A stretch of DNA of 64,000 nucleotides from a virus, in the IMG/VR virus record IMGVR_UViG_3300009082_000002, positions 43,407 through 107,406 of that record; one strand, written 5' to 3'. Of the stretch, positions 6,547 through 30,230 are shown in pieces. The notes below the pieces were generated by a model. It saw only the letters and a list, made by a program, of their open reading frames with translations, had not been told where the DNA came from and searched no databases. A program made the position numbers and the translations under genes. Positions within the stretch are counted from its first letter, which is position 1; every line of letters begins with the position of its first letter.

Positions 6547-6548
6547 CG

Positions 6549-7584: not shown

Positions 7585-7587
7585 CCG

Positions 7588-8631: not shown

Positions 8632-8641
8632 GGAGAAAAAA

Positions 8642-12003: not shown

Positions 12004-12675
12004 ATGCCGAGGATCAACACCGTGAAGAAGGCCAGGAAGGATCAGGGCGCCTGCTCGAAGTGCGGCAAGCAGATCGTTGTCGGAAGCCCGTACCAGTGGA
12101 TCGCTTTTCGCCACGGTGGGCGCCGCGTGATCTGCGACGGCTGCACGTTTCGCGCCAGCGACCTCACGCAGTCGAAGATGAGCGGCGTCTATGCCGCGCA
12201 GGAGAGCGCGGTTGAAAGCATCGGCAGCTGGGACGGCGAGGACGTGGAAGAACTCCGAGACATCCTTCAGGCCTGCGCGGAAGCGATCCGCGAGGTGGCG
12301 CAGGAGTACCAAGACAGCGCGGACGCGATCCACGATAGTTTTTGCGAGTCCGCCACTGCGGACGAGTGCGAGGAGAAGGCGCAGGAGCTGGAGAGCTGGG
12401 CAGACATGATCGAGGGCACCGAGTTCGATGAGTTCGACGAGGATGAGCACCGGAGCAAGTTGACCGAGGAGTTCGAGGGCTTGGAGCCAGATTATGCCTG
12501 CGAGGCGTGCAATGGCGTCGGGCATGACGTGGCCGGCGCGGGGTGCCAGGCGTGCGGCGGTACCGGGAACACCATCGCCGCAGAGATCGAGGACCGGCTG
12601 GAGAAGATGAAAGCCGACTGGGTCCAGGAGCAGTGCGACGAGGCGTCCAGCGTCCTGGAAGATTGCCCCTGCTAG
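12004..12675 (+). CDS. Protein with zinc finger and DnaJ-type CxxCxG motifs, 223 aa
   Basis: The N-terminus has a four-cysteine finger (CSKCGK at about residue 16 and CDGC at about residue 44). A long acidic helical middle (residues 60-155) follows. Near the C-terminus come two DnaJ-like CxxCxGxG repeats, CEACNGVGHD and CQACGGTGN. The combination suggests a zinc-stabilised binding protein; the DnaJ-like repeat in isolation does not make it a chaperone. ATG preceded by GGAGGAG directly after the palindrome. Confidence 0.65.
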   Translation: MPRINTVKKARKDQGACSKCGKQIVVGSPYQWIAFRHGGRRVICDGCTFRASDLTQSKMSGVYAAQESAVESIGSWDGEDVEELRDILQACAEAIREVAQEYQDSADAIHDSFCESATADECEEKAQELESWADMIEGTEFDEFDEDEHRSKLTEEFEGLEPDYACEACNGVGHDVAGAGCQACGGTGNTIAAEIEDRLEKMKADWVQEQCDEASSVLEDCPC

Positions 12676-12701
12676 CGCAGGGCGCGGAAGGAGACTGGAA
12701 G

Positions 12702-12971
12702 TTGACGAGCGGGACAGACAAAGTCATCGAGGCCCTCGCGGACATGGCCAACGGCGCGCGCACTGTGTACACGCCGCAGGCCAAGCAGATCGCTTCAGCA
12801 ATGCGGAGCCTTGTTGGCCGCTGTTGCTGCAGCGGGACGGACCGGGCGCAGCTCGACAAGCTCGCGGACGCGGCCGAGCCGATGATCATCATGCTCGCGC
12901 AGAAGATCGCAGCCGATGCTCTGGCGCTGGCAGAGGCCGTCGTCGAGCGCGGCGAGGTTGAAGAGAACTGA
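12702..12971 (+). CDS. Hypothetical protein with TTG start, 89 aa
   Basis: The TTG at 12702 lies eight bases behind AAGGAG (12688-12693) and gives a clean N-terminus (MTSGTDKVIEALADMANGA). Upstream in-frame sequence is arginine-rich and overlaps the previous gene, so I reject longer starts. It is almost fully helical, with a CCCSG cluster in the middle and an AEAVVERGEVEEN acidic end. It is coupled to the next gene by TGATG. No family recognised. Confidence 0.6.
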   Translation: MTSGTDKVIEALADMANGARTVYTPQAKQIASAMRSLVGRCCCSGTDRAQLDKLADAAEPMIIMLAQKIAADALALAEAVVERGEVEEN

Positions 12972-12997
12972 TGCCGGAAGGCGAGGAGGATGGAAGG

Positions 12998-13384
12998 ATG
13001 ATCACGAGCATCGACAGACGGGCATGCAAATTGATTATGCAGGAGTGTGGCGAAGCGTTGACCGCGGTCGCGGCGCGGCACGGCCTCAACCTCACCAAGC
13101 GTCCCGGTCGCTTCACCAACGCGATGATGACCTTCAAGTGCGAGTTCGTGGTTCAGAACGAGGAAGGCATCCCGGCTGACTTCATCGCGCACGCCAACCG
13201 CTTCGGGCTTCGCGCAACGGACCACGGGCGCGAGTTCAAAATGATGGGTGGTGCAATCGCCATCCTGGTCGGTATCAACCCGCACGCCAAGAAGTATCCG
13301 ATGATCGGCGAGCGGCGCAGCGACGGCCAGCGCTTCCGCTTCTCCGCACACTTCATTCGCGAGCAGTTCGCCAGTCCAGAGTAG
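12998..13384 (+). CDS. Hypothetical protein, 128 aa
   Basis: I place the start at ATG 12998, eight bases after GAGGAGG (12983-12989). An ATG at 12971 overlapping the previous stop would add nine residues. The fold looks mixed: helix (CKLIMQECGEALTAVAARHG), strands (AMMTFKCEFVV) and a basic end. No recognised domain. It is the last gene before the terminator at 13437. Confidence 0.65.
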   Translation: MITSIDRRACKLIMQECGEALTAVAARHGLNLTKRPGRFTNAMMTFKCEFVVQNEEGIPADFIAHANRFGLRATDHGREFKMMGGAIAILVGINPHAKKYPMIGERRSDGQRFRFSAHFIREQFASPE

Positions 13385-13436
13385 CTCACCGGCCCTAGCC
13401 GCTGGTTAGCGTCCTGCCAGCTAGCGGCCCCCACGC

Positions 13437-13463
13437 AGGCCAGCCCTCGGGCTGGCCTTTCTA
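13437..13463 (+). terminator. Rho-independent terminator
   Basis: AGGCCAGCCC and its complement GGGCTGGCCT form a 9-10-bp GC stem with a minimal loop, followed by TTTCT. It closes the rightward accessory operon and separates it from the leftward gene 13511-13900. Confidence 0.8.
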
Positions 13464-13510
13464 TGTGCGGACCAGGCTTGACCAGGGCGCGCCAGGCGCG
13501 CGAACCGGGT

Positions 13511-13900
13511 CTAGGCTGGACGCTTGCGCGTGACGAGGCGTGTGCGCTCCCTGGCGCGCTCCGGTTGGCTGGCTTGTCCTGCGCTGGCGTGAGTGCCCCC
13601 CGCGGCTTCGGTTTTCCGGTGGAGCTTCCGCAAGTACTCCTGCCAGCGGTCATACACGCGCTGGCAGTCGCGGTCGACGAAAGTTGCGAAGGGGACTTTG
13701 ATCTTCTTGCCGGTGCTCGGGTCGCTGACGATGAGATCGTAGGATGTAAGGATGCGGACGTTGAGCATCGCGCCGCTGACCAGCCGCGAGAGGTTGAAGA
13801 AGTACCAGTGCTGGACGTCAGGCGTCAGCCAGCGTCCGTCCGACGTCTGACAGCACTTGGCTTCCTGTACGAGCGGAAGATCGAACCCGAGGTCCTTCAT
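13511..13900 (-). CDS. Hypothetical protein, 129 aa
   Basis: Read leftward from an ATG at 13900, which follows GGAGGGGAGG. The body (LGFDLPLVQEAKCCQ, then VSGAMLNVRILTSYDLIV, then FATFVDRDCQRVYDRWQEYL) looks like a genuine small alpha/beta protein, and the last 40 residues are basic and low in complexity. A longer open frame from 13999 has poorer composition. It is one of two minus-strand genes and lies divergent to the late block. No family recognised. Confidence 0.65.
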   Translation of the reverse strand: MKDLGFDLPLVQEAKCCQTSDGRWLTPDVQHWYFFNLSRLVSGAMLNVRILTSYDLIVSDPSTGKKIKVPFATFVDRDCQRVYDRWQEYLRKLHRKTEAAGGTHASAGQASQPERARERTRLVTRKRPA

Positions 13901-14276
13901 CGCGCCTCCCCTCCGATCAGGTTGCGTGCAAGCCGATCCGCGCCGGGCCCCATTCTCAATTTGCACGTTGACGGCGAGTGCAGCAGGCGCACCAGACATT
14001 CCTTGCGTCTGGTCCGAGCCTGAACTTTCATCGCAGGCCTCCGGCGGATAGTTCGCGAACTGCGAGCCGCACGAACGATAGAAGGGACTTGCGCGGCTCG
14101 GCGCGTCCCGTCTATACTTGCTGGCGAGATGCGCCAGGAGGTTCGGATGTTCTGGTCTGGGTGGGTCGACGTGGTACGGTCGAGATCAGGGACAAGTTCC
14201 CCCCCCTTGGCTTTGGTCGAAGCCGTGTCGGCCCACCCGCTTTCTCACCTAGACAAGAGACGAGGGAGCGTGCTAC
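13901..14276. other. Divergent intergenic region upstream of the late genes
   Basis: This 376-base gap holds a good rightward promoter (14089-14118). It also has a strong AGGAGGT (14136-14142) four bases before an ATG at 14147, which opens a 47-codon frame to 14290 that overlaps the next gene. That small frame (MFWSGWVDVVRSRS...) has no recognisable features and could be a leader peptide or chance. I see no RNA gene here. Confidence 0.5.
14089..14118 (+). promoter_or_regulatory. Candidate late-block promoter
   Basis: TTGCGC (14089-14094), 18-base spacer, TATACT (14113-14118). It is the only clear promoter upstream of the terminase-portal-head genes, with the first well-placed ribosome binding site 18 bases downstream. 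Confidence 0.5.
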
Positions 14277-14693
14277 ATGGGCGAGCGTGAGTACACCGAC
14301 GCTGATCTCGGACTCGATTTCATCACCAGCCGCCGAGGCGCGACTGACCTCCGCGAGCTGGTGGTTGTCGGCTTCACAAAACAGGGTGCCGCAATCAAGC
14401 AACTCGGACGGGACGTCGAGCGCCTGGAGAGCGTGATGGTAACCGACGAGTCCTGCAAGGTGCGCATTCTGCAATTAGCAGCGGATGTCGGCAAAGTGGT
14501 CAAAGCCGAGACGAAGGAAGCGATCCAACAGGCAACCAGAGCAGCGGTCATGGATGCTACCACGGAGGCGGTGCGCAGGTCGAACGGATACAAGCCGTTC
14601 TGGCCGGTCGATGCGCGCGGCTGGTTAGCGCTCGCAGTCATGTTCGTCACCTTCCTCGGCTGGGTCGGTGCCAACGTCCTGCTCCTGAAGTAG
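14277..14693 (+). CDS. Hypothetical tail-anchored membrane protein, 138 aa
   Basis: The first 100 residues are soluble and helical (IKQLGRDVERLESVMV). A single hydrophobic segment at about residues 118-137 (WLALAVMFVTFLGWVGANVL) ends the protein, so it would be tail-anchored. Its position directly before the large terminase is where a small terminase subunit often lies, but a membrane anchor argues against that role and no DNA-binding motif is visible. Confidence 0.65.
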   Translation: MGEREYTDADLGLDFITSRRGATDLRELVVVGFTKQGAAIKQLGRDVERLESVMVTDESCKVRILQLAADVGKVVKAETKEAIQQATRAAVMDATTEAVRRSNGYKPFWPVDARGWLALAVMFVTFLGWVGANVLLLK

Positions 14694-14714
14694 CGCGCGC
14701 CTCGGGGGGTGTCG

Positions 14715-16163
14715 ATGGCCAGTGCGTCAGCTAAAGCGATCCGTGTCGACGAGAAGGAAGAGCTCGTCCGCGCCTTTGGCGAGTATGAGGCCATCTCCAA
14801 TGAGACCCTACGACGCGAGATTCTGCTCAACAGCCGATTCGACCTGCTCGCGGAATACGTGCTTGGCATCGAGCTGGAGCAAGTCCACCGTGAGCTGATC
14901 GCATACGCGCTCGAACACCCGGAGTCTCTGCACCTTGCCTTCCGTGGTTGCGGGAAGACGACTTCCTTCGTCTGCGTGTACATTGTCGGCCGCTTGCTTC
15001 AGAACCCGGAGCTTTGTATCCTGATCGCATCGCGCGCCGGACAGTACGCCAAGGCGATCTTGAAAGAGGTCAAGGGCCACCTAGTCAGCGAGCGGCTGGT
15101 CAGGATCTTCGGCGAGCAGATTGGCGAGAAGTGGGAAGAGACCGAGATCGTCGTCGGGCGAAAGAAGCGAAATACGAAGGAAGCCTCGGTCACGGCGCTC
15201 GGCGCCGAGGGCTCGATGACCGGTCGGCACTTCGACATCATCTTCTTCGACGATGGCGTGGACTTGGCGAACAGCCGCACGCGTGGCCAGCGCGAGAAGA
15301 TCAAGGAATTCTACTACACGACTCTCGACCCGTGCCTGAAGCCGGGTGGAGAGCGCAAGGTCGTCGGCACACGCTACCATCCGCACGACCTCTATGGCTG
15401 GCTCTCCGCTCACGAGTACAAAGGTTGTGCGCAGATCCTTCCGGCCCTGCACGAGGTCCGCGATGGCGGCGGATCGGTCACATACTACTCCAGCGCGCCA
15501 AAGCGCTTCACAGTCGAGTACCTCCTGGGCAAGCGATCCACGATCCCGACCTTCTCGTGGGTCACGCAGTTCCAGTGCACGGCGGAGCGGTTCCAGGGCA
15601 AGGTCTTCAAGCCGGAGTACTTCGAGGCCGAGGGCTTCTTCTTCACCGGCCCATTGCCGACCGGCCCTCTCTTCCAGTCCGTCGACCCTGCCGTGACCGA
15701 GGACACAAAGAATGACTACTTCGCCCACATGACTGGCGTCGCTGATCACGAGGGCCACGTATGGGTCGACGTCTTCCACAACATCCGTATCGAGTTTCCG
15801 AAGCAATCGCAGTTTTGCCACGATGAATTTGAGGCGCGCGATCCGGTGCGACTTGGTATCGAGAGCAACGCATACCAGAAGGCGCTCGGCCAGCAAATTG
15901 TCGCCGACTACCCGGACCTCAAGGGCAAGGTGATCGGCGTTCCGACCGACAAGGACAAGATGACTCGGGCCCTGAAGTTGACAGCCTATTTTGAGGCGGG
16001 CAGAATCCACTTCAGACCGGAGCACAAGGAACTCGTCGAGCAACTGCTGGAGTTCCCGGACGGAGAACACGATGATCTTTTCGACGCCCTGTATCTGCTA
16101 GTCTTGCTCGGGACGCGGATGCGGGTGAAGAAGAAGCGGCGCAAAGAGCCGGGCGTCCTTTGA
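14715..16163 (+). CDS. terL: Terminase large subunit (packaging ATPase/nuclease), 482 aa
   Basis: This is the motor that translocates and cuts phage DNA at the portal. The ATPase half has Walker A FRGCGKTTS (residues about 77-85) and Walker B IIFFDDGVD (about 174-182). The RNase H-like nuclease half shows the three acidic sites in order: QSVDPAV (about 322), IESNAYQ (about 381) and GEHDDLFDAL (about 450). Length and layout are normal for the family. I use the ATG at 14715 behind a G6 run; a GTG at 14709 is possible. No separate small subunit is recognisable nearby. Confidence 0.95.
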   Translation: MASASAKAIRVDEKEELVRAFGEYEAISNETLRREILLNSRFDLLAEYVLGIELEQVHRELIAYALEHPESLHLAFRGCGKTTSFVCVYIVGRLLQNPELCILIASRAGQYAKAILKEVKGHLVSERLVRIFGEQIGEKWEETEIVVGRKKRNTKEASVTALGAEGSMTGRHFDIIFFDDGVDLANSRTRGQREKIKEFYYTTLDPCLKPGGERKVVGTRYHPHDLYGWLSAHEYKGCAQILPALHEVRDGGGSVTYYSSAPKRFTVEYLLGKRSTIPTFSWVTQFQCTAERFQGKVFKPEYFEAEGFFFTGPLPTGPLFQSVDPAVTEDTKNDYFAHMTGVADHEGHVWVDVFHNIRIEFPKQSQFCHDEFEARDPVRLGIESNAYQKALGQQIVADYPDLKGKVIGVPTDKDKMTRALKLTAYFEAGRIHFRPEHKELVEQLLEFPDGEHDDLFDALYLLVLLGTRMRVKKKRRKEPGVL

Positions 16164-16174
16164 AGGGAGCAGGC

Positions 16175-18001
16175 ATGGCAGATCAGAAGGTGGTGAGGAT
16201 GCGACGGCGCCCGGTCGTGGGCTCCGCGAAGTCTTCTCCCAGCGACGCAGTCGAGAGCGGTGCAGTTCACATCGTGGACCACGCGTCTCGAGCTGTCGTC
16301 AAGGCGCTGGTGATCGAGGCCGACGCGGAGAAGGTGCCGGTGCCGACGTCCCAGGTCATGCCCGACGATCCCTTTCAGTCGCTCCTCGACAACCGTCAGA
16401 TCCTCGCGCCGCCACTCGACCCGCGGCTGCTCGCGTCGCTGTGGGAGTACAACTCCCACCTCGGCCCGTGCATCGCGACGATGATGGTCAACTGCGAGAG
16501 CTTCGGCTATCAGTTCGAGCCTCGCATCCGCGTCAACGAGGACACGTCGAAGGCGGTGCGCCAGCGCATCGAAGAGGAGCGCCTCATCCTCGACAACTTC
16601 TTCGGCAACTGCGTGATCGAGGGCGACGACAGCTTCACCGGTCTACGGATGCGGAAGCGGCAAGACGAGGAGGCCATCGGCTTCGCGGCGTGGGAGGTCA
16701 TCGAGGTCAACGGCGACCTTCTCGGCTTCAACTACATGCCAGCTCATACCGTCCGGCTGACGGGGCTCGACGAAAAGCGGGTCCGTATCGGGCGCAAGCT
16801 CCTCGTCCGCGGGGCCAGCGGTGTCTTCTCCTACGTCGAGCGACCGGTCTGGCGGCGGTTCCGCAAGTTCGTCCAGGTGCGCGGGACCAAGATGAGGTGG
16901 TTCAAGGAGTACGGCGACCCGCGCATGATGAACGCGGACTCTGGCGAGTACGTCGACGACCCCGCCAAGCTCCCGGTTCACAAGCGGGCCAACTCCGTCC
17001 TCTTCTTCGCGCTGCCCGCGCCGCGCACGCCATACGGCATCCCGCGCTACATCGGCAATCTTCTCGGGGTCTACGGCTCGCGCGCGACCGACGAGATCAA
17101 CTTCTTCACCTTCGAGAGCAACAACGTGCCGTCGATGGTCGTGATGGTCAGCAACGGGATGCTGACCGAGGGCTCGGTGGATCGGATTCAGAAGTTCGTT
17201 GAAGCGCAGGCCAACGGCCAGCGGAACTACAGCCGCTTTCTCATCCTCGAAGCGGAGACCGACAGCGAAGGTCTCGGCGACCCGGGCCGCGTCGCGCTCC
17301 ATATCGAGCCGCTCACGAATCAGCAGCGGACCGACGCTCTCTTCACCGAGTACAAGAAGCAGTGCAAGTCCGATGTGCGTCAGAGCTTTCGCATCCCGGA
17401 CCTTTTCTTCGGCGAAGCCTCATCGTCTGCCGGAGGCGCGGTCGGCGCGATGGAGATCATGAGAAAGCTCACGGATGAACAGGTCTTCATGCCGGAGCGC
17501 AACGCCTTCGACGACCGCATCAACAAGCTCATCATTCCGGCGCTGGGCGTGGTCTATCTGAAGTTCAAGAGCAACACGCCGGAGACGACGGACAACAAGG
17601 ATCTCATCCGCATTCTCGCAATGGCCGAGAAGTCCGGTGGCGTCACCCCACGGATCGCTCGCGAGGTACTCAACCGCGTGGTCGGGCAGAACCTCGGCGA
17701 CGTCACGGATATCGAGCCCGACGTCCCCTTCTCGCTCCAGGTCGCGGAAGCTGCACGCAGTCAAGGCGATCCGCGCACAGCGCTCTCCGTGCCCGGTACC
17801 AACTCGCTCCGCAGGATGGGCGCGACGACCCGCGCCGAGCTAGGGCTGGAGTCCACGGCCAAGGCGGAGGACGGCGACGAACCGTGGGAAGGCGAGGCCG
17901 TCATCGCAAGCCTCGGCTTGCTCCACAACAAGATCGCCGAGGAGCAAGCTCGCCGCGCTGGCAAGATGGTCAAGCGCGAGCGGCCGAAGCCCGTCGAGTA
18001 G
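16175..18001 (+). CDS. Portal protein, 608 aa
   Basis: It forms the dodecameric ring through which DNA enters the head. The sequence PRTPYGIPRYIGNLLG with the following FFTFESNNVPSMVVM is characteristic of PBSX/HK97-like portals, followed by the long stem helices. The C-terminal 100 residues are charged and probably disordered. Position between the terminase and the MuF-like protein is canonical. ATG 16175 follows AAGGGAG. The length is at the upper end for the family. Confidence 0.85.
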   Translation: MADQKVVRMRRRPVVGSAKSSPSDAVESGAVHIVDHASRAVVKALVIEADAEKVPVPTSQVMPDDPFQSLLDNRQILAPPLDPRLLASLWEYNSHLGPCIATMMVNCESFGYQFEPRIRVNEDTSKAVRQRIEEERLILDNFFGNCVIEGDDSFTGLRMRKRQDEEAIGFAAWEVIEVNGDLLGFNYMPAHTVRLTGLDEKRVRIGRKLLVRGASGVFSYVERPVWRRFRKFVQVRGTKMRWFKEYGDPRMMNADSGEYVDDPAKLPVHKRANSVLFFALPAPRTPYGIPRYIGNLLGVYGSRATDEINFFTFESNNVPSMVVMVSNGMLTEGSVDRIQKFVEAQANGQRNYSRFLILEAETDSEGLGDPGRVALHIEPLTNQQRTDALFTEYKKQCKSDVRQSFRIPDLFFGEASSSAGGAVGAMEIMRKLTDEQVFMPERNAFDDRINKLIIPALGVVYLKFKSNTPETTDNKDLIRILAMAEKSGGVTPRIAREVLNRVVGQNLGDVTDIEPDVPFSLQVAEAARSQGDPRTALSVPGTNSLRRMGATTRAELGLESTAKAEDGDEPWEGEAVIASLGLLHNKIAEEQARRAGKMVKRERPKPVE

Positions 18002-18010: not shown

Positions 18011-21000
18011 ATGATCCTCGCAGCGCGCAAGCTAGGTCCGATGGATGCCATCTTCCGGTCGATGACCGACGAGCAACTTGCGACCGCGAAGGCGGTCGCT
18101 CGCGAAGCTCTCCAGTGGTCGGGCGTACTCAAGGCGGCAGATGTCTATCTCGGCGTCGACGAGGATCTCTCCGCGACGCTCCTGCACAAGTGGGATGCCA
18201 AAGCGAAGGAGCAGATTGACAAAGGCGCCAAGGTGCTTGCGAAGGCGCAGAAGGGCGAGGTTGTCCAGTCCACGCTGAAGGGTACGTTGTGGAAGCTCGG
18301 CAAGGTGATGGGCGAGGAGTATGGCGAGGCCGTGTTGCCCGACTTCATCCGCGCGACGCTACTGACCTGGAGTCTGGCAAGCAAGGAAACGATGGGCCGA
18401 CTTCAGCTCAAGTGGTCAACCGAACTTGTCGACCAGAACGCCGCAGCTCGGCTTTCCAAGTTCCACACCTATTGGGTCGGAAAGCACTACGAAACTAGCA
18501 TTGCGAATTCGCTCCAGATCGCCACGCGGCAGACCATCATCGAAGGCGGACTTGCTGGCACGCAGGCAGCCAACGCCTTCCGCGACATCGCCTCGAAGTA
18601 CTTGGCCGGCAAGGGCGAGTCCTTCCCCGAGGTTCCGAAGGGCTGGACTGGCACGACGGACGAGTACTTTGCTGGGCTCGCGAATCACGTCGGCACACAG
18701 GCCCGCGTCTTCAGCCGACTCGAATCCTACGAGCGCGTCGGGATCACGACCTACACCATCGTCGCCGTCCTCGACAACCGGACGAGCGATATTTGCCAGA
18801 TGATGCACGGGCAGACATTCACGGTCGAGCAAGGTCTCGGCGTCGCGGAGACCTGGACGGAGGAGTACACTCCAGAGGCAGTCAAGGAGAAGGCCGGCTG
18901 GATGCGCGCGCAGGACGCAGCCAAGCTCGCCGGGCTGTCGGACTACAAGCCCGGCACGGTCTCACCAAAGATCAGCCCGAAGGGAATGGACGCACTGGCC
19001 GAGGCTGGCATGGCGCTTCCGCCGTACCACTTCCGCTGCCGGACAGACATCGTCGCGGAGCAGGAGGTCATGACCTTCCCGAGCGGCGGCGAGCCGACTT
19101 ACAAGCCGGTGAAGCCGCCGAAGGCCGAATCGCCGAAGCCGCCGCCGGCCGCGCCTACGCCGCCATCCAAGGCGACGGGCGGATTCCCGTGGCAGATGTC
19201 CCAGCTCACGTCGGTTGAGAAGTCCGCGAAGGGAATGCACGCCAAAGCCTTCTTCCACGACCCGGACGGCAACGAGTGGATGTTCAAGCCCGCGCCGGAG
19301 GGGCTGCGTTTTCGTGCAGAGGTCGAGAAGCTGGCTGCCGATGCGGCGCGCGCGCTCGAAGTCGACACGGCCGACGTCTTCATGGTTGAGCACGAAGGAA
19401 AGATCGGGACGATTCAACGCCTCTTCAAAGACATCAAGCACGACGGGCTCACCAAGGTCGGCGTCCAGGGCTTGACGCAGGAGCAGGTCGCACAGCTCCA
19501 GCGCCAGCACATTTTTGACTGGCTCATCGGGAACAACGACGGCCACATCGACAACTTCCTCGTCTTGAAGGACGGCAAGCTCGTCGGCATCGACCGAGGG
19601 CAGGCCTTCCGCTATTTCAAGACAGACAAACTCGCGCTCGACTACAACCCCAATGCGCGCTATGGGATCAAGGTCTTCTACAACGACGTCTTCGCAGCGG
19701 CACGCGACGGCAAGTTGCCGACTGGCGTAGAGATGCTCGGGCTCGACGCGCCGGAGATTGCCAGTCTGGTTAAGAAGGCCGAGTCGCTGTCCGACGAGCA
19801 GTGGCTTACGATCTGGCGGCCGTACATCGACGGCGCGATGAAGAACAAGAGCCTCGCCTACGGCTCGCGCGCCGCCTTTGAACGCGAGCTACTTCGACGG
19901 AAGAACCAGCTAGGGAGTGATCTCGACGAGTTCTATCGCGGCCTCCTCGGAAAAGGACGCGCGGCGCGTCGGACAGCGGAGACGCAGAAGGGTGTCCTGA
20001 CTCCGGTTGACAAGTCCTTCGTGAGTGAGATGCAAGCCGCGAAGAACCGCGGCAAGTCCGTGCTCGTCGCGTCGGAAGAGATCGAAAACGGCAACGTCCT
20101 CGTCTACACCTACGCGGACGGGACGGTCGTGGTCGAAGGCAAGATGCGGAAGCTCGCCGACGAGATGGTGCGGGCGCAGCTTGCTGGCCCGCAGGCTGCG
20201 GGCGCAACGCCGGGGACCGACTCGCTGTGGGACGACGTGCTCTCCTGCATCAAGTCTTTCAATCACCATCTCGGGCCAGGCGGCAGCGGTACGATCCCGG
20301 ACAGCAAGCAACGTCTTTTCGTGCGGACGCTCAACGCGGCAAAAAAACAATGGGCCGAAGGCTGGACCGTACCGGGCGGGACGCAGGCTGGACAGATGGG
20401 TGAATACTACGTCAAGCTCCTCCAGCAGTATGGGACCGAGTCGCTCGGGATGCGGCTGACCACAACGACAAAGAAAATGCTCGGCGTCAAGAACCAGCCG
20501 TTCAAGGTGCCAGGCGTGAAGGCCAAGGCACTCGCTGGTCGCGTGAAGCGGTCGAGCATCGAGAGAATCTACGAGGAGGAGCGCAAGCTGGTCCGCGGAG
20601 TGATCAAGAACAAGCACGGCGAGATTGCGAGTCAGTCCACCTTCGGATGCGGAATGGATGAGACCAAAGAGATGATTGTGGCTGTGCTCGATGACGGCAC
20701 GGAGATCCACTACATCCCACACAACGGATATAGGCAGGGCCAGGCGTACTCGAAGCAAGGCCGCTTCAGGATTAAGGTGCAACCGGCTACCGGCGCGAAG
20801 GACGTCACGCCGAAGCAAGTCCAGAAGGCACTTGACGCCATCGGTGATCTCGGCGTCTCGCCGAAGCTGATGACCGAGGCCGACTTCGAGTTGCTCTACT
20901 TGCAGAAAAACCAGTTCGCGATGGGCTACGCGAACGATGCGGCTTTCGCCAACATCCCGGCCAACGGCTCAACCGAGGAAAAAATCCAGGCGTACCTCGA

Positions 21001-21661
21001 CGCCTTCAGAAAGAAGCTGCGGAAAAATCCGCGTTCGCTGCCCGGCTACGATCCGCGGCCGGTCTACTACAGCGGGGACAACGCGGGCATTCCGCGTTTC
21101 CGGCGTTTCGACATTGACCGGAAGAAGCTAGCAGAGGCGGACCTTGAATTCACACACAGAGTTCAAGGGGGCGCGGATGAAGTGCTTCTTTCGATCATCG
21201 ACGGAGAGTCTGGCGGCTTGATCTCGACGGAGGAGAAGCTCCGTCGCGGAGTTGAAATCAGCGGGATGAGCCCTGGCGAGGACCAGATGACCGGCGGTGC
21301 GCAATACGTTTTCGCGCGGGCGAAGGGGATTGGCCGGGAGCGCAACTGGAACATGATCATCTTTAAGAAGGAACTGGCACTCGACACGAACATGGTCTCC
21401 TATTCGACAGACAAATTCGGGTGTATGGAGCCAGGCAGGAAGGAAGCGACTCGCGCGAAGACGTTTCAGAAGTTGATGGGTTTCCGCAAATTCGACGCTA
21501 ATGAGTCGCTCATCAAAAACGAGATTCCGCTGGACATGTGGGAGCACGTCATCGTCAGGCGGTCCACGCGGGTCAAGCTACTCGATGAACTCGAAAAGCG
21601 TGGCGTGAAGACACTTGGCGGGAAGCCCGTCGAGGAGTTCGTGATCGGGCTCGGGAGGTGA
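18011..21661 (+). CDS. MuF/SPP1-gp7-like head protein fused to a HipA/PI3-4-kinase-like domain and an unknown C-terminal domain, 1216 aa
   Basis: Residues about 1-350 are a minor head (MuF/SPP1 gp7) domain, ending with the signature DNRTSDICQMMHGQTF (about 254) and PPYHFRCRTD (about 336). A proline-rich linker follows (about 364-390). Residues about 395-560 resemble HipA and PI3/4-kinases: EWMFKPAP (nucleotide lysine region, about 421), HIFDWLIGNNDGHIDNFLV (catalytic loop with N, D, H and N, about 501-519) and GIDRGQAF (metal-binding Asp, about 525). Residues about 660-1216 are unknown; a conserved-looking stretch reads ISGMSPGEDQMTGGAQYVFA near 1080-1100. MuF proteins are known carriers of C-terminal effector domains. 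Start could also be ATG 18041. Confidence 0.8.
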   Translation: MILAARKLGPMDAIFRSMTDEQLATAKAVAREALQWSGVLKAADVYLGVDEDLSATLLHKWDAKAKEQIDKGAKVLAKAQKGEVVQSTLKGTLWKLGKVMGEEYGEAVLPDFIRATLLTWSLASKETMGRLQLKWSTELVDQNAAARLSKFHTYWVGKHYETSIANSLQIATRQTIIEGGLAGTQAANAFRDIASKYLAGKGESFPEVPKGWTGTTDEYFAGLANHVGTQARVFSRLESYERVGITTYTIVAVLDNRTSDICQMMHGQTFTVEQGLGVAETWTEEYTPEAVKEKAGWMRAQDAAKLAGLSDYKPGTVSPKISPKGMDALAEAGMALPPYHFRCRTDIVAEQEVMTFPSGGEPTYKPVKPPKAESPKPPPAAPTPPSKATGGFPWQMSQLTSVEKSAKGMHAKAFFHDPDGNEWMFKPAPEGLRFRAEVEKLAADAARALEVDTADVFMVEHEGKIGTIQRLFKDIKHDGLTKVGVQGLTQEQVAQLQRQHIFDWLIGNNDGHIDNFLVLKDGKLVGIDRGQAFRYFKTDKLALDYNPNARYGIKVFYNDVFAAARDGKLPTGVEMLGLDAPEIASLVKKAESLSDEQWLTIWRPYIDGAMKNKSLAYGSRAAFERELLRRKNQLGSDLDEFYRGLLGKGRAARRTAETQKGVLTPVDKSFVSEMQAAKNRGKSVLVASEEIENGNVLVYTYADGTVVVEGKMRKLADEMVRAQLAGPQAAGATPGTDSLWDDVLSCIKSFNHHLGPGGSGTIPDSKQRLFVRTLNAAKKQWAEGWTVPGGTQAGQMGEYYVKLLQQYGTESLGMRLTTTTKKMLGVKNQPFKVPGVKAKALAGRVKRSSIERIYEEERKLVRGVIKNKHGEIASQSTFGCGMDETKEMIVAVLDDGTEIHYIPHNGYRQGQAYSKQGRFRIKVQPATGAKDVTPKQVQKALDAIGDLGVSPKLMTEADFELLYLQKNQFAMGYANDAAFANIPANGSTEEKIQAYLDAFRKKLRKNPRSLPGYDPRPVYYSGDNAGIPRFRRFDIDRKKLAEADLEFTHRVQGGADEVLLSIIDGESGGLISTEEKLRRGVEISGMSPGEDQMTGGAQYVFARAKGIGRERNWNMIIFKKELALDTNMVSYSTDKFGCMEPGRKEATRAKTFQKLMGFRKFDANESLIKNEIPLDMWEHVIVRRSTRVKLLDELEKRGVKTLGGKPVEEFVIGLGR

Positions 21662-22458: not shown

Positions 22459-22632
22459 ATGAGCAGAGATCCGCTTGTTGAGATCGAGCAGCGCTACCGC
22501 GCGAAGAGGCTCTCCGCTCTCGGCCTCGCCAGCATCATCAGACGAGCCTGCGACACCTTTGAGGCATCCGAGCGACTGCGCAAGCGTTGGTCCGCACGCA
22601 AGGCCGTGATCGATCAGGAGGCCGGTCGATGA
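22459..22632 (+). CDS. Small hypothetical protein, 57 aa
   Basis: This short frame begins at ATG 22459 behind GGAGGGG and ends in an ATGA overlap with the giant polyprotein gene, so it is very probably translated. It encodes a basic helical peptide (LVEIEQRYRAKRLSALGLAS, then RLRKRWSARKAVIDQEAG). Its Arg/Lys-rich helices could bind DNA or a partner, but there is no family match. Confidence 0.65.
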   Translation: MSRDPLVEIEQRYRAKRLSALGLASIIRRACDTFEASERLRKRWSARKAVIDQEAGR

Positions 22633-25600
22633 AGATCAAGGACATCTCGCCGACTTCCTTGCGCGGAGTAAAGGACCAGGAGCTTCTCTCGCTCCACCTT
22701 CGGACTCATCAGCTTTACGGCGCGAACTTCGGGCCGGACGCCCCGCCAGAGCGCGGCTACCGCGACGACACGGGAGACACGGCCAAGGACGGCTTGAGGC
22801 TCGACGAGGAGACCGCGCGGAAGATCTGGCGCGGCGAGGTCAAGGCGGTCACCTTCTCCGACGACCCCGGTGACGTTGAGCGCGCTCTGTTCCTGCTGTC
22901 GCCCGGCTTCGCCTACGGCATCATCCGGCTTGACGAGACCGACACCGACGACCACAAGTACAAGGTCGACTACTTCCGCGCTTTCGAGGTGCCGCTCACA
23001 TTCAAGGGCACGGGCGACGGCCTGCTCGTGACGGGAGTCGAGATCACGTCGGAGGAGTCGCCGCTGTCGCTGGAAGACCTGGTCCACGCTCACCAGTTCA
23101 TCCTCGACGAGATGAACCGCCGGAAGATGCGCCACCAGTGGGCCTCGCAGCTCGACGACGAGACCAGCCCGGGCGAGGAGATTGAGAAGGCGACCGGACC
23201 TTTCAAGCGCTGGGGTGGGTCTGCCCAGTACGCAGCAAAAATCGCGAAGTACGTACCAGCGAACGCTGGCGCGTACATCGAGCCCTTCGCTGGTGCGGCC
23301 AGCGTGTTTTTCTCACTGACCGACACGCCGAGGAAGCGCGTGCTGGCCGACCTGGACCCGGAGCTAGTTCACGCCTTCAAGATGATCCAGGGCGCGGCGA
23401 AGAACGGGCTCATCAAGGCGCTCGAAAAAAAGGACCGTGTTGTCAGCGAAAAGCAGTGGCAGAAGTTGCGGCATCGGATTCCGAGCGGCGACGTCGAGCG
23501 CGTTCATCGGTTCCTGTACCTGCTCGGCGGATCGTGGTCCGGCGTGCGGAGTGGCGCGCGCCCGAACAAGAAACGAGTCGGTCAGATTTCCTACGATCCG
23601 AAGCGGCTGGAGAAGTTCATCAAGCCGTTGCAGGGCGTGACGCTCAAGAACCAGAACTGGCAGAAGACGCTGAAGGACAACGACGCGCCGGACGCCTTCT
23701 TCTTCATCGATCCGCCGTACCCGGGCGAGTGGGACAAGAACGCCGACGACACAGGCACGGACGGCAAGCAGTTCGACGTCGAGGCTCTTGTCGAGGCGAT
23801 GAAGGATCTGAAGGGTGGCTGGCTTCTCGTTCTTGGCGACACCAAGACCCAGACGGATGCGCTGGCGAAACTGGAGAAGGAAGCCGGCGCATCTCGCTTC
23901 AAGATCCAGTTGAGCGAGGCTGCGAGTTCTGGTGGGCACAAGGAAGCCTATCGGTACTTCGCGATGCGCCCGCTTCAGTCCCGCGTGCGGAAGGCCGACG
24001 ACGTTGGCGTGAGCCGCGACCAGGTACTCGACCTCATGGAAGAGGCCGGCAGCTTTGTGGTGGTACCGAGTTATGTGTCGCTCGTCGGCTCCGTCGTGAC
24101 CGGCGAGGATGACCAGTCGGCACACGACATTGATCTGCTTGTTCGCGATGACGAGATCGATTCCAAGGTCGGGCTCAAGCTGGACCGCCTCTTTCCCGCG
24201 TCGATGCGCGACAAGGTCCACTACATCCCCGACCCGCAGGGACCGAATTGGGATCACCTGCCGCTGTACGATCTGGTCCTGCGGAAGCGCAGCGCGCTGG
24301 AAGTGGTCGAGGTCGATGAACCGGAGTACCACCCCTTCCTGTCCGGCGATGTGCGCCGCTACGGCGAGCAAGTCGCGAAGGGGAAGTTCACCATCGTCCG
24401 TGGAATCTGGGGCTCGCCCGGCGGCAAGGCTTTTCTCGCAAAGCGCATCGCCACCGTCATCCCGCCTCACAAAATCTACGTCGAGCCGTTCGCTGGCGGT
24501 GGCGCGGTTCTCTTCGCGAAGCCGCCGGTCGAAAAGGAAGTCGTCAACGACCTCGACAGCGAGATCGCCTTCGCGTGGCGGTTCGTCAGCAAGGTCACGG
24601 ACGACCAGCTCGACGCGCTCCGCAAGATGAACTGGGTGGCGAGCGGCAAGCTGTTCGCCAAGCTGCGTGACATGAAGCCGCCGTCCGATCCGGTCGAGCG
24701 ATTTCATCGGTTCATGTACCTCTACCGCTGGAGCATCAACGGCAACCGCGAGAAGACGCACACGATGCCGCCGACCTACGAAGGGCTCCGGCAGCAGGCA
24801 GTCGAAGCGGTCGAGCGGTGTCGCGAGCGCGTGCATGGCCTCATCGTGCGGAGCGCCGACTACGAGAAGGTTATCGACGAGTTCGACAGCAAGGACACCT
24901 TCTTCTTCATCGATCCGCCGTACAAGCATTATGATGCCCAGCTCACCGAGGAGAAGAAGCAAGAGGACTTCGACGAGGAGCGATTCGTCGAGGTGCTGAA
25001 GAAAATCAAGGGCAAGTTCCTTGTGACCTACGGAATCCGCAGCGGCACGGATCTCTTCAAGGGCTTCACGGTCCAGCGGTGGCAGCACCGAGGTCGGCCC
25101 GGGCCGGCCGTGGGCGGCAAGTTCCAGAAGGTCACGACGCTCATGGTCTCAAACTATCCGCTGCCGCAGCGGACGCGCAAGGCGAAGGTGGGGCTCATGC
25201 AGCCCTTCACTCCGCTGAAGGCGAAGGGCGGGTACCATCAGGGCGAGTTCTTCGAGGCCGACCCGCTGTGGGATCTCTGGGCTGGCCCTGCGATCAAGGA
25301 CGGGAAGACCGTCGCCGTCGAAACCAAGTTCGACGGAATTCGGATGGTCATCCACAAGGAAGGCGACAACGTCGCGATCTACACCGAGGATAAGAAGCGC
25401 GACCGCGCGAGCATCCTTCCGGACTTGGCCGACGAGGTTCGCAAGCTGACAGTCGAGAACGTGATCCTTGACGCCGAGGTCGTCTGGTGGAAGGGCAGCA
25501 AGCCGCTGGCCCGTCACGACATGATGGCGCTCGTTGTCGGCAAGGACCCGATCAAGGGCGAGGATATCCGGGCCAACGTGTTCGACGTCCTGTGGTTCGG

Positions 25601-27917
25601 CGGCGAGGGCAGCCTGGCCGATGAGTCGTGGGAGGATCGCCAGTCGTACCTGCGCAAGGTTCTGCCGAAGGATGGGAAGCATCTCATTCGCGTGGTGCCG
25701 CGGCTGGTCAACAACCGGCGCGAGTTCGATGCCGCACTCAAGGCTGCGCGTCGAGCAGTCGGCAGCGAAGGCGCGATGCTGAAGCTCGCCAATGCGCCGT
25801 ACGATCTGGAAGGCCAGACTGGCGCGTGGGCCAAGCTCAAGGACGTGTACGAGATCAAGTGTGTCGTCATCGGTGTCCGCAAGAAGATCCCGAGCGAGCA
25901 GGAGGACCCCGGCTTCAAGAAGGACCCCTCGCGCTGGAACTACGCCGGTATCAAGGAGCCCAGCGCTTTCACCTACCGCTGCGCCGTCCGTGGTGAGGGT
26001 GGCAAGCTCATCCCCATCGAGGGCGAGCGGACGTACACCGGCTCGGATCTCAAGGTGCGGTGGGTCGAGAAGGGCCAGAAGGACCCGGTGACGGGTGAGA
26101 CCGCGAGCGAGAGCGAGTGGCGCGGTACCGACGATCCGAAGCTCTGGAAGATGGGGCTCGGCTTCAACAACCGCGACGTCGGCGACACCGAGTACGGCAC
26201 GACCTACGGCACCGGAGTCGAGGCGAAGATCGGTGACGTCATCACGGTCTCTCCGGTCTTGGTCCGAGAGTGGGTCGGGGACAGCGGCCGGCGTCACTAC
26301 TCGTGGACCTTCCCCATCGTGCGCGAATCCGACCCGACACGCGACGAGCCTGACCGCGTCGAAGACCTGCGGCGCATCGCAGCGGCGAGCCGGCAGCGCG
26401 CACCGGAGAAGATGCCGAGCGAGGAAGCCGTCGAAACCGCGGCGGTGTCGAAGTCCGTCGCGAGGATCGCCCACCTGCAGAAACAGCGGCGCGGCGACCT
26501 GGACCCCGACGAGACCAAGCTCAATCGCGAGGAGGAACGCGAACGGCAGGAGAAGATCACGGGCGACCCGTACATGGTCGAGCAGAAGGCCAAGGCCAAG
26601 GCACGGTTCGTCTTGCAACAACACTATCGCGGGTTCTGGTCGCCGGACGAGCGGAAGCAACTGCGAGACGGAATCACGCGGGCTCGCGAGCTGGCCGAGT
26701 CCGACAAGAAAGATGAGGCCAAGGATCTGCTCAAGGGTCTCTGGCAGGAGTACCAACCGCTCATGCTCAAGGCCAGCATCGCAGAGATCCGCGAGGCAGC
26801 CGAGGCCGCAGACAACGCAGGCGAAGGCGAGGTCAGTCCGGCGGTTGCGCGCCGTCTATCGGAAGCGGTGCCGATGTTCGATGAGCTCGAAGGGGTCGAA
26901 GATCGGATCGTCAACCGGGGCAACGTCCACACCGACCTTCGGATGGAGTCGCCGTCCGGCGACTGGCTGATCGGCTGGACGCTGGATACGCCGAAGCTGG
27001 CCCTGCAGACGCTCGACGGGAAGGCGCATGACCTCCTCCGGTCCTACGTGATTGACAACAAGCCGGACGACAACGCGCTCGCCCAGCGCAAGCTGGTCCA
27101 GCCCGAGAACTGGCTGGCCATCGTCAACGAGAAGAAGCCGATCTACCAGACCGCTCCGGGCGACGTCGGCTCAACGCGCGGCACCGCTGGCGAGTACCAC
27201 TACATTGACTCGGGCGTTGTGATCTTCGGCGTGCAGAAGTCCGACTATCACGAGTACTTCTTCTTCCCCGAGAAGCACAAGGGCTGGGCCGGTCGGTGGG
27301 GGCTGCAGCTCATCGAGGGGAGCCCGAGCTACGCCCGCGCGCCGAGCGAGTTCTGGATGGCCAACCGGCCGAAGGAAACGCAGACCCCCTACATCCAGAC
27401 GCACGACCTCGACGAGGAGGAGAAGAAGGCCAAGACCGACAAGATCGACCTCGTGTGGAACCCCGACACGGTCGAGGCACTGAAGGCGGTCGGGTACGAA
27501 TCGCTCGCCGACGTGTCGAAGTCCGCTGGCGGCGAGCTTGAACCGATCAGCGTCAACGTCCGAATCGTGAAGGCGGCGAAGGAGGAGCGGTACGTTCTCG
27601 GCGTTGTGATGAAACCGGATGACGTCGACGCCCACGGAGAGATTACCACGGCAGCCGAGATCAGGAAGGCTGCCCACAATTTTCTTGTCAATGGTCCGAA
27701 GATCGGCTATCAACATGAAGAGACACCTGGAGGTCTGATCTTGATCGAGAGCTTCCTGGCCCCCGCAGAGTTCAAGCTCGGTGGCGAGACGATCACTGTT
27801 GGCACCTGGCTCATCGCGGTTCGCGTGAACAACGACAAGGTGTGGAAGGCCGTCAAGGAAGGGAAGATCACCGGCTTCAGCATCGAAGGTTACGCAAAGA
27901 AAGTGCCGCTCGAATAG
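22629..27917 (+). CDS. Giant head polyprotein: two D12 adenine methylase domains, nucleotidyltransferase-like domain, ATP-dependent DNA ligase, LigD-type phosphoesterase-like region and XkdF prohead protease; 1762 aa
   Basis: Visible domains in order: a conserved-looking N-terminal region (about 1-190); a D12-class adenine methylase (YIEPFAGAASVFF near 215, FFFIDPPYPG near 358-367); a polymerase-beta-type nucleotidyltransferase-like motif (LVGSVVTG then HDIDLLV, about 484-504); a second D12 methylase (YVEPFAGGGAVLF near 616, FFFIDPPYKH near 757-766); an ATP-dependent DNA ligase (KFDGIR adenylation lysine near 900, EGAMLKL near 1046, WAKLKD near 1066, then an OB-like region); a helical linker; a 3'-phosphoesterase-like segment with HTDLRME (about 1432); and a C-terminal XkdF/S78_2-like protease (about 1640-1762) with DVDAHGE, IGYQHEE and GFSIEG. 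Both methylase active motifs and the ligase lysine are intact. The protease end and location before scaffold and capsid genes imply incorporation into the prohead. ATG 22629 overlaps the previous stop. Confidence 0.85.
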   Translation: MKIKDISPTSLRGVKDQELLSLHLRTHQLYGANFGPDAPPERGYRDDTGDTAKDGLRLDEETARKIWRGEVKAVTFSDDPGDVERALFLLSPGFAYGIIRLDETDTDDHKYKVDYFRAFEVPLTFKGTGDGLLVTGVEITSEESPLSLEDLVHAHQFILDEMNRRKMRHQWASQLDDETSPGEEIEKATGPFKRWGGSAQYAAKIAKYVPANAGAYIEPFAGAASVFFSLTDTPRKRVLADLDPELVHAFKMIQGAAKNGLIKALEKKDRVVSEKQWQKLRHRIPSGDVERVHRFLYLLGGSWSGVRSGARPNKKRVGQISYDPKRLEKFIKPLQGVTLKNQNWQKTLKDNDAPDAFFFIDPPYPGEWDKNADDTGTDGKQFDVEALVEAMKDLKGGWLLVLGDTKTQTDALAKLEKEAGASRFKIQLSEAASSGGHKEAYRYFAMRPLQSRVRKADDVGVSRDQVLDLMEEAGSFVVVPSYVSLVGSVVTGEDDQSAHDIDLLVRDDEIDSKVGLKLDRLFPASMRDKVHYIPDPQGPNWDHLPLYDLVLRKRSALEVVEVDEPEYHPFLSGDVRRYGEQVAKGKFTIVRGIWGSPGGKAFLAKRIATVIPPHKIYVEPFAGGGAVLFAKPPVEKEVVNDLDSEIAFAWRFVSKVTDDQLDALRKMNWVASGKLFAKLRDMKPPSDPVERFHRFMYLYRWSINGNREKTHTMPPTYEGLRQQAVEAVERCRERVHGLIVRSADYEKVIDEFDSKDTFFFIDPPYKHYDAQLTEEKKQEDFDEERFVEVLKKIKGKFLVTYGIRSGTDLFKGFTVQRWQHRGRPGPAVGGKFQKVTTLMVSNYPLPQRTRKAKVGLMQPFTPLKAKGGYHQGEFFEADPLWDLWAGPAIKDGKTVAVETKFDGIRMVIHKEGDNVAIYTEDKKRDRASILPDLADEVRKLTVENVILDAEVVWWKGSKPLARHDMMALVVGKDPIKGEDIRANVFDVLWFGGEGSLADESWEDRQSYLRKVLPKDGKHLIRVVPRLVNNRREFDAALKAARRAVGSEGAMLKLANAPYDLEGQTGAWAKLKDVYEIKCVVIGVRKKIPSEQEDPGFKKDPSRWNYAGIKEPSAFTYRCAVRGEGGKLIPIEGERTYTGSDLKVRWVEKGQKDPVTGETASESEWRGTDDPKLWKMGLGFNNRDVGDTEYGTTYGTGVEAKIGDVITVSPVLVREWVGDSGRRHYSWTFPIVRESDPTRDEPDRVEDLRRIAAASRQRAPEKMPSEEAVETAAVSKSVARIAHLQKQRRGDLDPDETKLNREEERERQEKITGDPYMVEQKAKAKARFVLQQHYRGFWSPDERKQLRDGITRARELAESDKKDEAKDLLKGLWQEYQPLMLKASIAEIREAAEAADNAGEGEVSPAVARRLSEAVPMFDELEGVEDRIVNRGNVHTDLRMESPSGDWLIGWTLDTPKLALQTLDGKAHDLLRSYVIDNKPDDNALAQRKLVQPENWLAIVNEKKPIYQTAPGDVGSTRGTAGEYHYIDSGVVIFGVQKSDYHEYFFFPEKHKGWAGRWGLQLIEGSPSYARAPSEFWMANRPKETQTPYIQTHDLDEEEKKAKTDKIDLVWNPDTVEALKAVGYESLADVSKSAGGELEPISVNVRIVKAAKEERYVLGVVMKPDDVDAHGEITTAAEIRKAAHNFLVNGPKIGYQHEETPGGLILIESFLAPAEFKLGGETITVGTWLIAVRVNNDKVWKAVKEGKITGFSIEGYAKKVPLE

Positions 27918-27932: not shown

Positions 27933-28946
27933 ATGTCGAAGAAGGCCGAGCGCGAACTCAAGGACATCGTGGTCACGAATGTGGACCTTGTGGACCGCGC
28001 CGCGAACGAGGAACAATTCGCAGTCGTGAAACGGAAGGAGGGCCGAGGGATGGCCGACAAGACCAAGGTGAAGAAGGACGAAGAGACCGAGGAGGAGAAG
28101 GTGGCCGGCGAGGTGGCAGGCGCCGCCGAGACCGAGACCGACACGGAGGCCAGCACCGATGAAGGCGGCGACGACAAGAGCGCGGTCGCCAAGACGGCCG
28201 AGGCCGTCACGGGCCTGACCGCGCGGCTCGACTCGCTCCTCGACCACCTGGAGAAGAAGGGCAAGACCTCGAAGCAGGACGAGGACGAGGAGGACGTCAC
28301 GAAGGCGGACGGGATCAAGATGGCCAAGGACGCGCTCGCTGCGGCCCTCGTCGTCAAGAACCTGCCGGCCGACGCGAAGGCCAAGATCGAGTCGGCAATC
28401 GCCCTGCTCGACAAGATGAAGGCCAACGGCTACGGCTACCCGAAGCCGACCGAGGCCAAGAAGTCCGAGAGCGTCGTCGGCGACGCCGAGGCCGTGGCCA
28501 AGGCCGGTCGCATCCTGTCGAAGGCCAACCTCGGCAAGCTCCAGACCGCGGCCAAGGCCATGAACGACGCGACCGAGACGATCACATCCATGCTCAAGCA
28601 GGCGATGGGCACGACCGACGAGGAGGAGGACGAGGAGGCCAAGTCGAAGACGAAGAAGGCCAAGGCCAAGAAGCAGGACGACGAGGAGGACGAGACCGAC
28701 GTCGAGGCCAAGAAGGCCAAGGGCAAGAAGGCCGAGAAGGCCGAGGACGAGGACGAGGAGGTCAAGAAGTCGCTACTCGCGATCTCCGACAGCCTCACCA
28801 AGATCAGCAAGCGGCTCGACGACGCCGAGGCCGCCGTGGGGATCACCAAGTCCCTCGGCGACGGCGAGGATGCTCCCGAAGGCGAGACGGTCAAGAAGTC
28901 GCAAGGCGGCCTGTGGGCCGGACTCGGCCTGGTGCCGGGGCGCTAG
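27933..28946 (+). CDS. Scaffold-like head protein, 337 aa
   Basis: Between the protease and the capsid gene, it has the scaffold-like composition expected there: more than half Lys, Glu, Asp and Ala, with long predicted helices and acidic runs (DEDEEDVTK, EEEDEEAKSK). The N-terminal ELKDIVVTNVDLVDRAAN resembles the short conserved start of proteins next to XkdF-type proteases. The end is a hydrophobic GGLWAGLGLVPGR peptide that might bind the capsid protein. It is inferred to template prohead assembly and then be degraded by the protease. Confidence 0.7.
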   Translation: MSKKAERELKDIVVTNVDLVDRAANEEQFAVVKRKEGRGMADKTKVKKDEETEEEKVAGEVAGAAETETDTEASTDEGGDDKSAVAKTAEAVTGLTARLDSLLDHLEKKGKTSKQDEDEEDVTKADGIKMAKDALAAALVVKNLPADAKAKIESAIALLDKMKANGYGYPKPTEAKKSESVVGDAEAVAKAGRILSKANLGKLQTAAKAMNDATETITSMLKQAMGTTDEEEDEEAKSKTKKAKAKKQDDEEDETDVEAKKAKGKKAEKAEDEDEEVKKSLLAISDSLTKISKRLDDAEAAVGITKSLGDGEDAPEGETVKKSQGGLWAGLGLVPGR

Positions 28947-29021
28947 CAGCAAGGACAACCGACGCGTTGACCGCGTAGGAAGAACCGGGTGAAGGAACCC
29001 ACGAGAGAAGGAGGCAGGAAT

Positions 29022-30230
29022 ATGCCGGCAGTGACCAACAGAGAGGCGCTCAAGAAGGCGGTCATCACGACGGACTCGATCACGACCGCCGGGAAGCTCA
29101 ACCCCCTCCAGGCGGATCGGTTCATCGACTTCGTCTGGGACGTGACCAAGCTCAAGGGGCACGTGCGGACCGTCAAGTTCCGCAACGACGAGATGTACAT
29201 CGACAAGGTCGGGGTCGGCACTCGCGTCGCGGTGCCGAAGGTCGAGGCCGTGGACCCGGGTGTCCGGCGCGGCATCACGACCTCGCGCGTGACGCTGAAG
29301 CCGTCCGAGGTCATGTGCCCCTTCGAGATCAGCTACGAGATGCTCGACGAGAACCTGGAAGGCGAGGCCTTCGCCGAGCACCTGGTCAAGATGTTCGCCA
29401 CGCAGTTCGGCAACGACATGGAGGAGCTGTGCATCAACGGCGATGCGCTGGGCCCGGCAGTCCTCCAGTCCGAGTACGTGGCCGGCGGCAGCGCGACCAA
29501 GTACGTCAAGGACGCGTACCTCGCGCTTCACGACGGCTGGCTGACCCTCGCGCGGCAGGGGCACGGTGTCGACTTCGCCGGGGCCAACGTGAGCAACCGC
29601 CTCTTCAGCCGACTGATCAACGCCCTGCCCGAGAAGTTCAAGAAGGACCGGACCAAGCTCCGCTTCTTCTGCTCCACGGACTTCGAGCAGAACTACCGCG
29701 AGAAGGTGGCCGCCCGGGCGACCGGCAAGGGTGACGTGGCGCTGATGAGCGAGATGCCGCTGACGCCCTTCGGCGTGCCGCTCATCGCGGTGCCGCTGCT
29801 GCCCTTCCAGCCGAAGGTGGTCCAGCACATCGTCCTGACCGGCACCACGGCGACCGCGCTCCTCTTCAAGGATGTGACCAGCGTGGTCGTGACGACCTCG
29901 ACCCTGGACGCCACCCCCGAGGATGCGTACACCGAGGGCGCGGGTGGTGACTACGTGCTGGATGCGGTCAACGGCACCATCGCTCGGACCGCCGGCTCGA
30001 CCATCGGTTCCGGCGCGACCGTGAAGGTGACCTACAACGCCGAGGCCCAGGTCATCTGCACGCACGAGAGCAACTTCATCATGGCGCTCGGCCGTGACTC
30101 GATCCGGCTGGAGACGGACCGGGACATCTTCAAGTCCACGCTCCAGTACTCGCTGACCGCCAAGATCGACTGCGAGTTCGAAGAGGCCGATGCGATCAGC
30201 TTCGGCTACAACATCGGGCTCGACGTCTAG
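29022..30230 (+). CDS. Major capsid protein (HK97-fold), 402 aa
   Basis: This is the main shell protein, inferred from its place after the scaffold, its strong ribosome binding site (GAAGGAGG) and highly biased codon use. The N-arm runs into a helix and an E-loop-like segment, and a P-domain helix (ALHDGWLTLARQG) is visible. Residues about 270-345 (TTSTLDATPEDAYTEGAGGD, then VTYNAEAQ) form an Ig-like insertion often seen in capsid proteins of this type. The C-terminal DAISFGYNIGLDV resembles the closing strand of the A-domain. A terminator-like hairpin follows. Confidence 0.85.
   Translation: MPAVTNREALKKAVITTDSITTAGKLNPLQADRFIDFVWDVTKLKGHVRTVKFRNDEMYIDKVGVGTRVAVPKVEAVDPGVRRGITTSRVTLKPSEVMCPFEISYEMLDENLEGEAFAEHLVKMFATQFGNDMEELCINGDALGPAVLQSEYVAGGSATKYVKDAYLALHDGWLTLARQGHGVDFAGANVSNRLFSRLINALPEKFKKDRTKLRFFCSTDFEQNYREKVAARATGKGDVALMSEMPLTPFGVPLIAVPLLPFQPKVVQHIVLTGTTATALLFKDVTSVVVTTSTLDATPEDAYTEGAGGDYVLDAVNGTIARTAGSTIGSGATVKVTYNAEAQVICTHESNFIMALGRDSIRLETDRDIFKSTLQYSLTAKIDCEFEEADAISFGYNIGLDV

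Follow-up and report, generated by a model that had tools for sequence, protein, structure and literature searches.

A single gene in a 64,000-nucleotide stretch of viral DNA (here called the window), the right-hand 64 kb of an IMG/VR record of 107,406 bp, encoded a 1762-aa polyprotein in which two adenine methylases, a predicted nucleotidyltransferase (NT), an ATP-dependent DNA ligase, and a phosphoesterase (PE)-like domain preceded a C-terminal XkdF-type prohead protease. The gene occupied the protease slot of a phage head operon, its active sites were intact, its NT-ligase-PE core was conserved in related viruses, and its DNA-modification modules were exchanged for others even among close relatives. 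On balance, we lean toward a polyvalent head polyprotein by which a kit for genome modification and end joining enters the prohead, to be freed there by its own protease; that the kit is packaged, cut loose, and active on entry we infer from gene content and position.

Genomic position and domain organization

The reading frame was uninterrupted by stops, and the ATG at 22629 was taken as its start because it was preceded by a ribosome-binding site (RBS; AGGAGG) and because the N-termini of two related polyproteins, L017 and L028, matched that of the window (M-K/R-I-K-D-I-S-P). The single 1762-aa frame of an original prediction, made from the sequence alone, was thus borne out (Table 1). The same prediction had called the product a capsid-protease polyprotein, and the flanking genes for the terminase large subunit (TerL), portal, MuF, scaffold, and major capsid protein (MCP) agreed with a head-module position, with portal and MuF on one side and scaffold and MCP on the other. 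The MCP was 35% identical to that of Streptomyces phage Moab (E, 8e-38), which has an ordinary 438-aa capsid maturation protease in the same slot. Searches of the 107-kb contig returned no other S78_2 protease, no S78 or ClpP-type protease, and no ATP ligase besides that of the polyprotein.

TABLE 1 Head operon genes and polyprotein domains, in window coordinates
Feature	Position	Strand	Evidence
Terminase large subunit (TerL)	14709..16163	+	phrog_38, E 2.5e-63
Portal protein	16160..18001	+	phrog_12, E 1.9e-22
MuF-type minor head protein fused to HipA/PI3K-like kinase region	18011..21661	+	
Capsid-protease polyprotein, 1762 aa	22629..27917 (stop codon included)	+	ATG start; AGGAGG RBS upstream
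N-terminal domain, fold without assignment	22629..23183	+	No Pfam or PHROG match
D12/Dam-type adenine methylase 1 (FAGAAS, DPPY)	23184..23993	+	Pfam PF02086, E 4e-17 alone
Predicted Pol-beta-type nucleotidyltransferase (GS...DID...DLVL)	23994..24368	+	Motif residues; NTP_transf_2, E 0.07
D12/Dam-type adenine methylase 2 (FAGGG, DPPY)	24384..25193	+	PF02086, E 2.6e-21 alone; TIGR00571 above cutoff
ATP-dependent DNA ligase with C-terminal extension (KFDGIR, SEGAMLK, WAKLK)	25194..26528	+	PF01068, E 1e-21; PDB ligase matches
Linker HLQKQRRGDLDPDE, candidate hinge or site of processing, conserved in L017 and L028	26472..26513	+	
Phosphoesterase (PE)-like beta domain (QxHxRG ... HxDxR ... YHEYF), LigD homology unproven	26571..27548	+	
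XkdF/S78_2 prohead protease, invariant His (YQHEE) and Ser (GFSIEG)	27549..27914	+	PF14550, E 8e-30
Scaffold-like protein, N-terminus similar to positions 1 to 56 of phrog_3017 (a family of head maturation proteases)	27933..28946	+	
Major capsid protein (MCP)	28989..30230	+	phrog_1623; Streptomyces phage Moab MCP

The MuF protein of the window was 1216 aa long, with a further uncharacterized C-terminal part beyond the kinase region, and is possibly a second cargo fusion; that cargo would also be variable, since the MuF protein of L028 has only 354 aa.

Three of the enzyme assignments in the original prediction were confirmed. Each D12 domain was significant by itself in Pfam (E, 4e-17 and 3e-21), and the TIGR00571 Dam model scored 151.9 bits against the polyprotein (cutoff, 114.85). 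DPPY was intact in both methylases as predicted; the FAGxG motif, claimed for both, was found as FAGGG in the second and reads FAGAAS in the first. The GATC ratio was 0.93, showing no strong avoidance, and therefore gave no hint at methylase specificity. The ligase, predicted from K-x-D-G-x-R, had an adenylation domain with KxDGxR (as KFDGIR) and motifs IV and V, identified by Pfam DNA_ligase_A_M, alignment, and PDB matches. Peptidase_S78_2 covered residues 1645 to 1758 of 1762 (103.9 bits; cutoff, 24), in line with the predicted XkdF-type protease, and its H69 and S124 were invariant in the 10 sequences aligned.

The two remaining predicted enzymes stood as motifs. The GS..DID motif of the NT was present, and its glycine and three aspartates were invariant in an alignment of nine relatives; the Pfam match was below threshold, the AF2 model was too poor to use (pLDDT, 57), and a fold search gave no match. 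For the domain predicted to be LigD phosphoesterase-like, the HTDLR motif was present and LigD identity was not established, with zero matches in a profile search of the polyprotein with LigD_N (PF13298). Because of these sub-threshold and null profile results, both identities rest on motifs.

The PE-like domain yielded a good AF2 model (pLDDT, 90; pTM, 0.86), which matched no solved structure in the PDB and, in a fold search, one viral prediction without a name. Its profile scored 24.1 in hhalign against an alignment of genuine LigD phosphoesterases (maximum of 60 shuffles, 19.4; unrelated D12 control, 22.2), and the profile score was still weak after 17 relatives were aligned or after deletion of an insertion of ~95 residues that separates the Q-x-H and H-x-D-x-R motifs. 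The motif order QxH, HxDxR, GRW was the same in the PE-like domain and LigD, and among relatives the H, R, and H-x-D-x-R residues were invariant. A full-length DNA ligase D model scored far under its cutoff on the polyprotein, and Ku was found in 0 of 13 virus records, several of which are fragments. Homology to the LigD phosphoesterase is possible and unproven. The 81.6-kb L014 record carried PE-like and S78 domains and no ATP ligase anywhere in the record, so the PE-like domain may not need one.

Residues 1 to 31 (LHLRTHQLYG) and 148 to 169 (HQFILDEMNRRKMRH) of the polyprotein contained a motif recurring in the family. The patterns LHxxLHxxY and then HxFxxxEMxRR were observed 26 and 14 times, with some loci counted twice, versus 2 and 0 times in shuffled proteins. 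In phage P1 DarB, the N-terminal 30 residues suffice for head targeting (PMC9024508), and by this analogy we propose the N-terminal element as a candidate signal for delivery to the head.

Related viruses and the conserved core

Scans of viral contigs identified ~20 further related virus contigs, with a common core order of NT, ligase, PE-like domain, and (S78). The core lay in one frame in L011, L012, L015, L017, and L028; in L020 and L034, a D12 unit sat between the ligase and the PE-like domain, and in other relatives the core was divided among several genes. The S78 domain was last in every fused relative. Catalytic residues were invariant across 9 to 14 divergent relatives, including ligase motifs I, IV, and V in intact copies. 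The gene order TerL-portal-MuF-polyprotein-scaffold-MCP was kept in L017 and L028 and partly in L011 to L013. Fusion is not obligatory, because eight relatives (ANMV-1, L005, L016, L023 to L025, L035, and L041) do not have the ligase/PE part in a single frame with an S78 protease.

No DNA-level relatives were found in the phage collection, and bacterial and archaeal genomes gave one match, an 86-kb MAG-binned contig identical in length to a virus contig of IMG/VR, with coordinates that also match. Among annotated phage records, only ANMV-1, a virus from methane-seep archaea, combined ligase and PE, under the label "ATP-dependent DNA ligase."

Several relatives had unusual ligase loci. In three, the ligase frame was interrupted at one shared position within motif I (L005:8720-8770, L041:8580-8640, and L035:9640-9720); the broken ligases read KYDC-stop or KFDC-stop (KFDG-stop in L035) and restarted a few codons later, ahead of (G)(V/I)R. 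The break may reflect the remains of an insertion or a split ligase whose parts reassemble, and Rfam returned no RNA family match at the site. In L041 (8601-10880), ligase motif V was also interrupted, by an intein containing a LAGLIDADG endonuclease region. In L005, the first open reading frame began with a metallo-beta-lactamase fold, and the gene after the ligase-D12-PE chain (12312-14771) encoded a C-terminal MCP domain (Phage_capsid_4) preceded by a long N-terminal part, which may be a protease.

A swappable DNA-modification slot

The window methylases are one version of a slot whose DNA-modification module is exchanged among relatives, a point that the original prediction missed. In a ligase tree, the window, L017, and L028 formed one clade (support, 100/99), with ligase identities of 65 to 70% and the same flanking genes, and the modification part was entirely different in each. 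In place of the two D12 adenine methylases of the window, the single frame of L017 (2184-10718; ~2643 aa from ATG) encodes a tandem array of four C5-cytosine methylases, all showing PCEP/PCEA and ENV motifs, together with NT, ligase, PE-like, and S78 domains. No D12 or C5 methylase was found in L028; the N-terminal 371 aa of its polyprotein (4243-8649) matched phrog_887 (phage queuine-transglycosylase; E, 4e-12), a DpdA-like module that is detected by PHROG 887 and missed by the TGT profile PF01702. Just upstream in the L028 head operon were QueD, QueE, FolE, QueC, and a queuosine-precursor transporter, and the N-domain was encoded separately as a 227-aa protein. An additional match, to a Lar-like restriction-alleviation protein, was found in L035. 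Viral DNA modification is the common denominator of the slot contents.

Among 13 virus records, all D12 or C5 methylases found were in this head region, and the ATP ligase, where present, was single and belonged to the head locus.

Proposed function and alternatives

In the mechanism that we favor, co-assembly with the scaffold would bring the chain into the prohead, perhaps via the N-terminal LHxxLHxxY element, and the protease would free the enzymes by cleavage during head maturation. The released enzymes would stay with the genome, modify its DNA, and seal nicks or broken ends, allowing it to survive restriction. They would most likely act as the genome is ejected into its next host, in the manner of P1 DarB.

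The polyprotein may instead be cut in the producing cell, in the style of eukaryotic viruses, the enzymes modifying and sealing progeny DNA before or during packaging and little or nothing being delivered, an account that we take seriously and nonetheless doubt. It fits the usual late expression of head genes, the relatives that encode the parts as separate genes, and L028, which couples its DpdA-like module with preQ0 genes in the head operon, whose preQ0 would be available only where these genes are expressed. Yet it leaves fusion to a prohead protease, rather than free genes elsewhere, without a reason, and the confinement of methylases and ligase to the head region in the 13 records examined also speaks against it. 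For the L028 module, whose operon also encodes preQ0 synthesis, we consider it more plausible that progeny DNA is modified in the producing cell than that modification occurs on entry; action on entry and action in the producing cell may both be true, for different modules.

Delivery with the genome, our preferred reading, also has a more specific form, which is tentative and on the unlikely side, namely a new class of genome-protection machine borne in the head: the NT-ligase-PE core, as a fusion with the head protease, would be injected along with the genome to reseal restriction breaks, and a plug-in slot (m6A, m5C, or 7-deazaguanine) would be refitted against the restriction systems of local hosts.

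It is improbable that the polyprotein serves as part of the packaging machine, with the ligase and PE-like domains mending nicks or ends of DNA as it enters the head and the methylases as secondary passengers. Such a role would suit a core whose conservation far exceeds that of the modification slot and that occurs in L011, L012, and L015 with no methylase detected at the locus; however, the L014 record is without an ATP ligase, and most tailed phages package DNA without such enzymes. An assembly error, which the original prediction had itself raised as misassembly joining separate genes, or a functionless chance fusion of adjacent genes can hardly be credited, for although L002 and L003 came from the same sample and are not independent support, the same type of fusion lies in one frame in L017, L028, L012, L015, L020, and L034, catalytic residues are invariant, and GC3 is similar throughout the 1762-aa frame.

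If loading and release by the prohead protease are true, DNA modification and joining become part of head maturation, with the modification chemistry exchanged like a cartridge. Head assembly would then be linked directly to antirestriction, which would explain such enzymes in a head operon, and these viruses would illustrate in nature how a prohead protease can load and free enzyme cargo. With three alternatives in one clade (adenine methylases, cytosine methylases, and 7-deazaguanine), the antirestriction idea can be tested directly.

Comparison with known systems

Polyvalent proteins with C-terminal prohead peptidases have been known since 2017; the NT-ligase-PE core and swappable slot were not found described in the open-access literature searched, and descriptions could exist outside it. 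Polyvalent proteins of phages and conjugative elements carry several unrelated enzymes per chain and are predicted to be packaged (Iyer et al. 2017, PMC5512222), and some have an assemblin-like prohead peptidase, always C-terminal, N6A methylases, and Pol-beta NTases (PMC5512222). They share with the window polyprotein the disparate enzyme domains in one chain, the portal-terminase/head gene context, and a C-terminal prohead peptidase, which is XkdF/S78_2 here and assemblin-like there. In contrast, zincins are the main peptidases of these proteins, and an SF2 helicase usually accompanies the methylase. A word search of the main text of that study found no DNA ligase, LigD, or XkdF, and no swappable modification slot of this kind was found in it (PMC5512222).

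The resemblance to the P1 Dar system is a functional analogy: DarB, a large adenine methylase packaged in the head, shields the genome from restriction. The Dar proteins are encoded by separate genes rather than as a protease polyprotein, DarB is a methylase-helicase, and there is no ligase. The DpdA-like module of L028, accompanied by FolE, QueD, QueE, and QueC, likewise recalls phage DpdA/preQ0 DNA modification (PMC6884629); the literature searched contained no account of DpdA as part of a head-protease polyprotein.

Phage XkdF/S78_2 proteases (phrog_3017, phrog_1530, and phrog_14859) have the same domain, with His and Ser, in the same portal-MCP slot; the annotated examples examined were ~150 aa alone or 350 to 410 aa and were without such cargo. 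XkdF proteins of only ~150 aa in Otagovirus and Phapecoctavirus records (L052 and L055) were labeled "DNA methyltransferase" and look misannotated, the label having probably spread from a PHROG family in which methylase-XkdF fusions occur.

Bacterial LigD, a nonhomologous end joining (NHEJ) ligase with a 3'-phosphoesterase, shares an ATP ligase beside a Q-x-H, H-x-D-x-R domain in the same order; the window polyprotein differs in the null LigD_N search, the lack of a detected Ku, and the insertion that parts the motifs. The ATP-dependent DNA ligase of ANMV-1 (AJP62006.1) has the same NT-ligase-PE order as the window, in 866 aa without protease or methylase, and the prohead protease of that virus is a separate gene.
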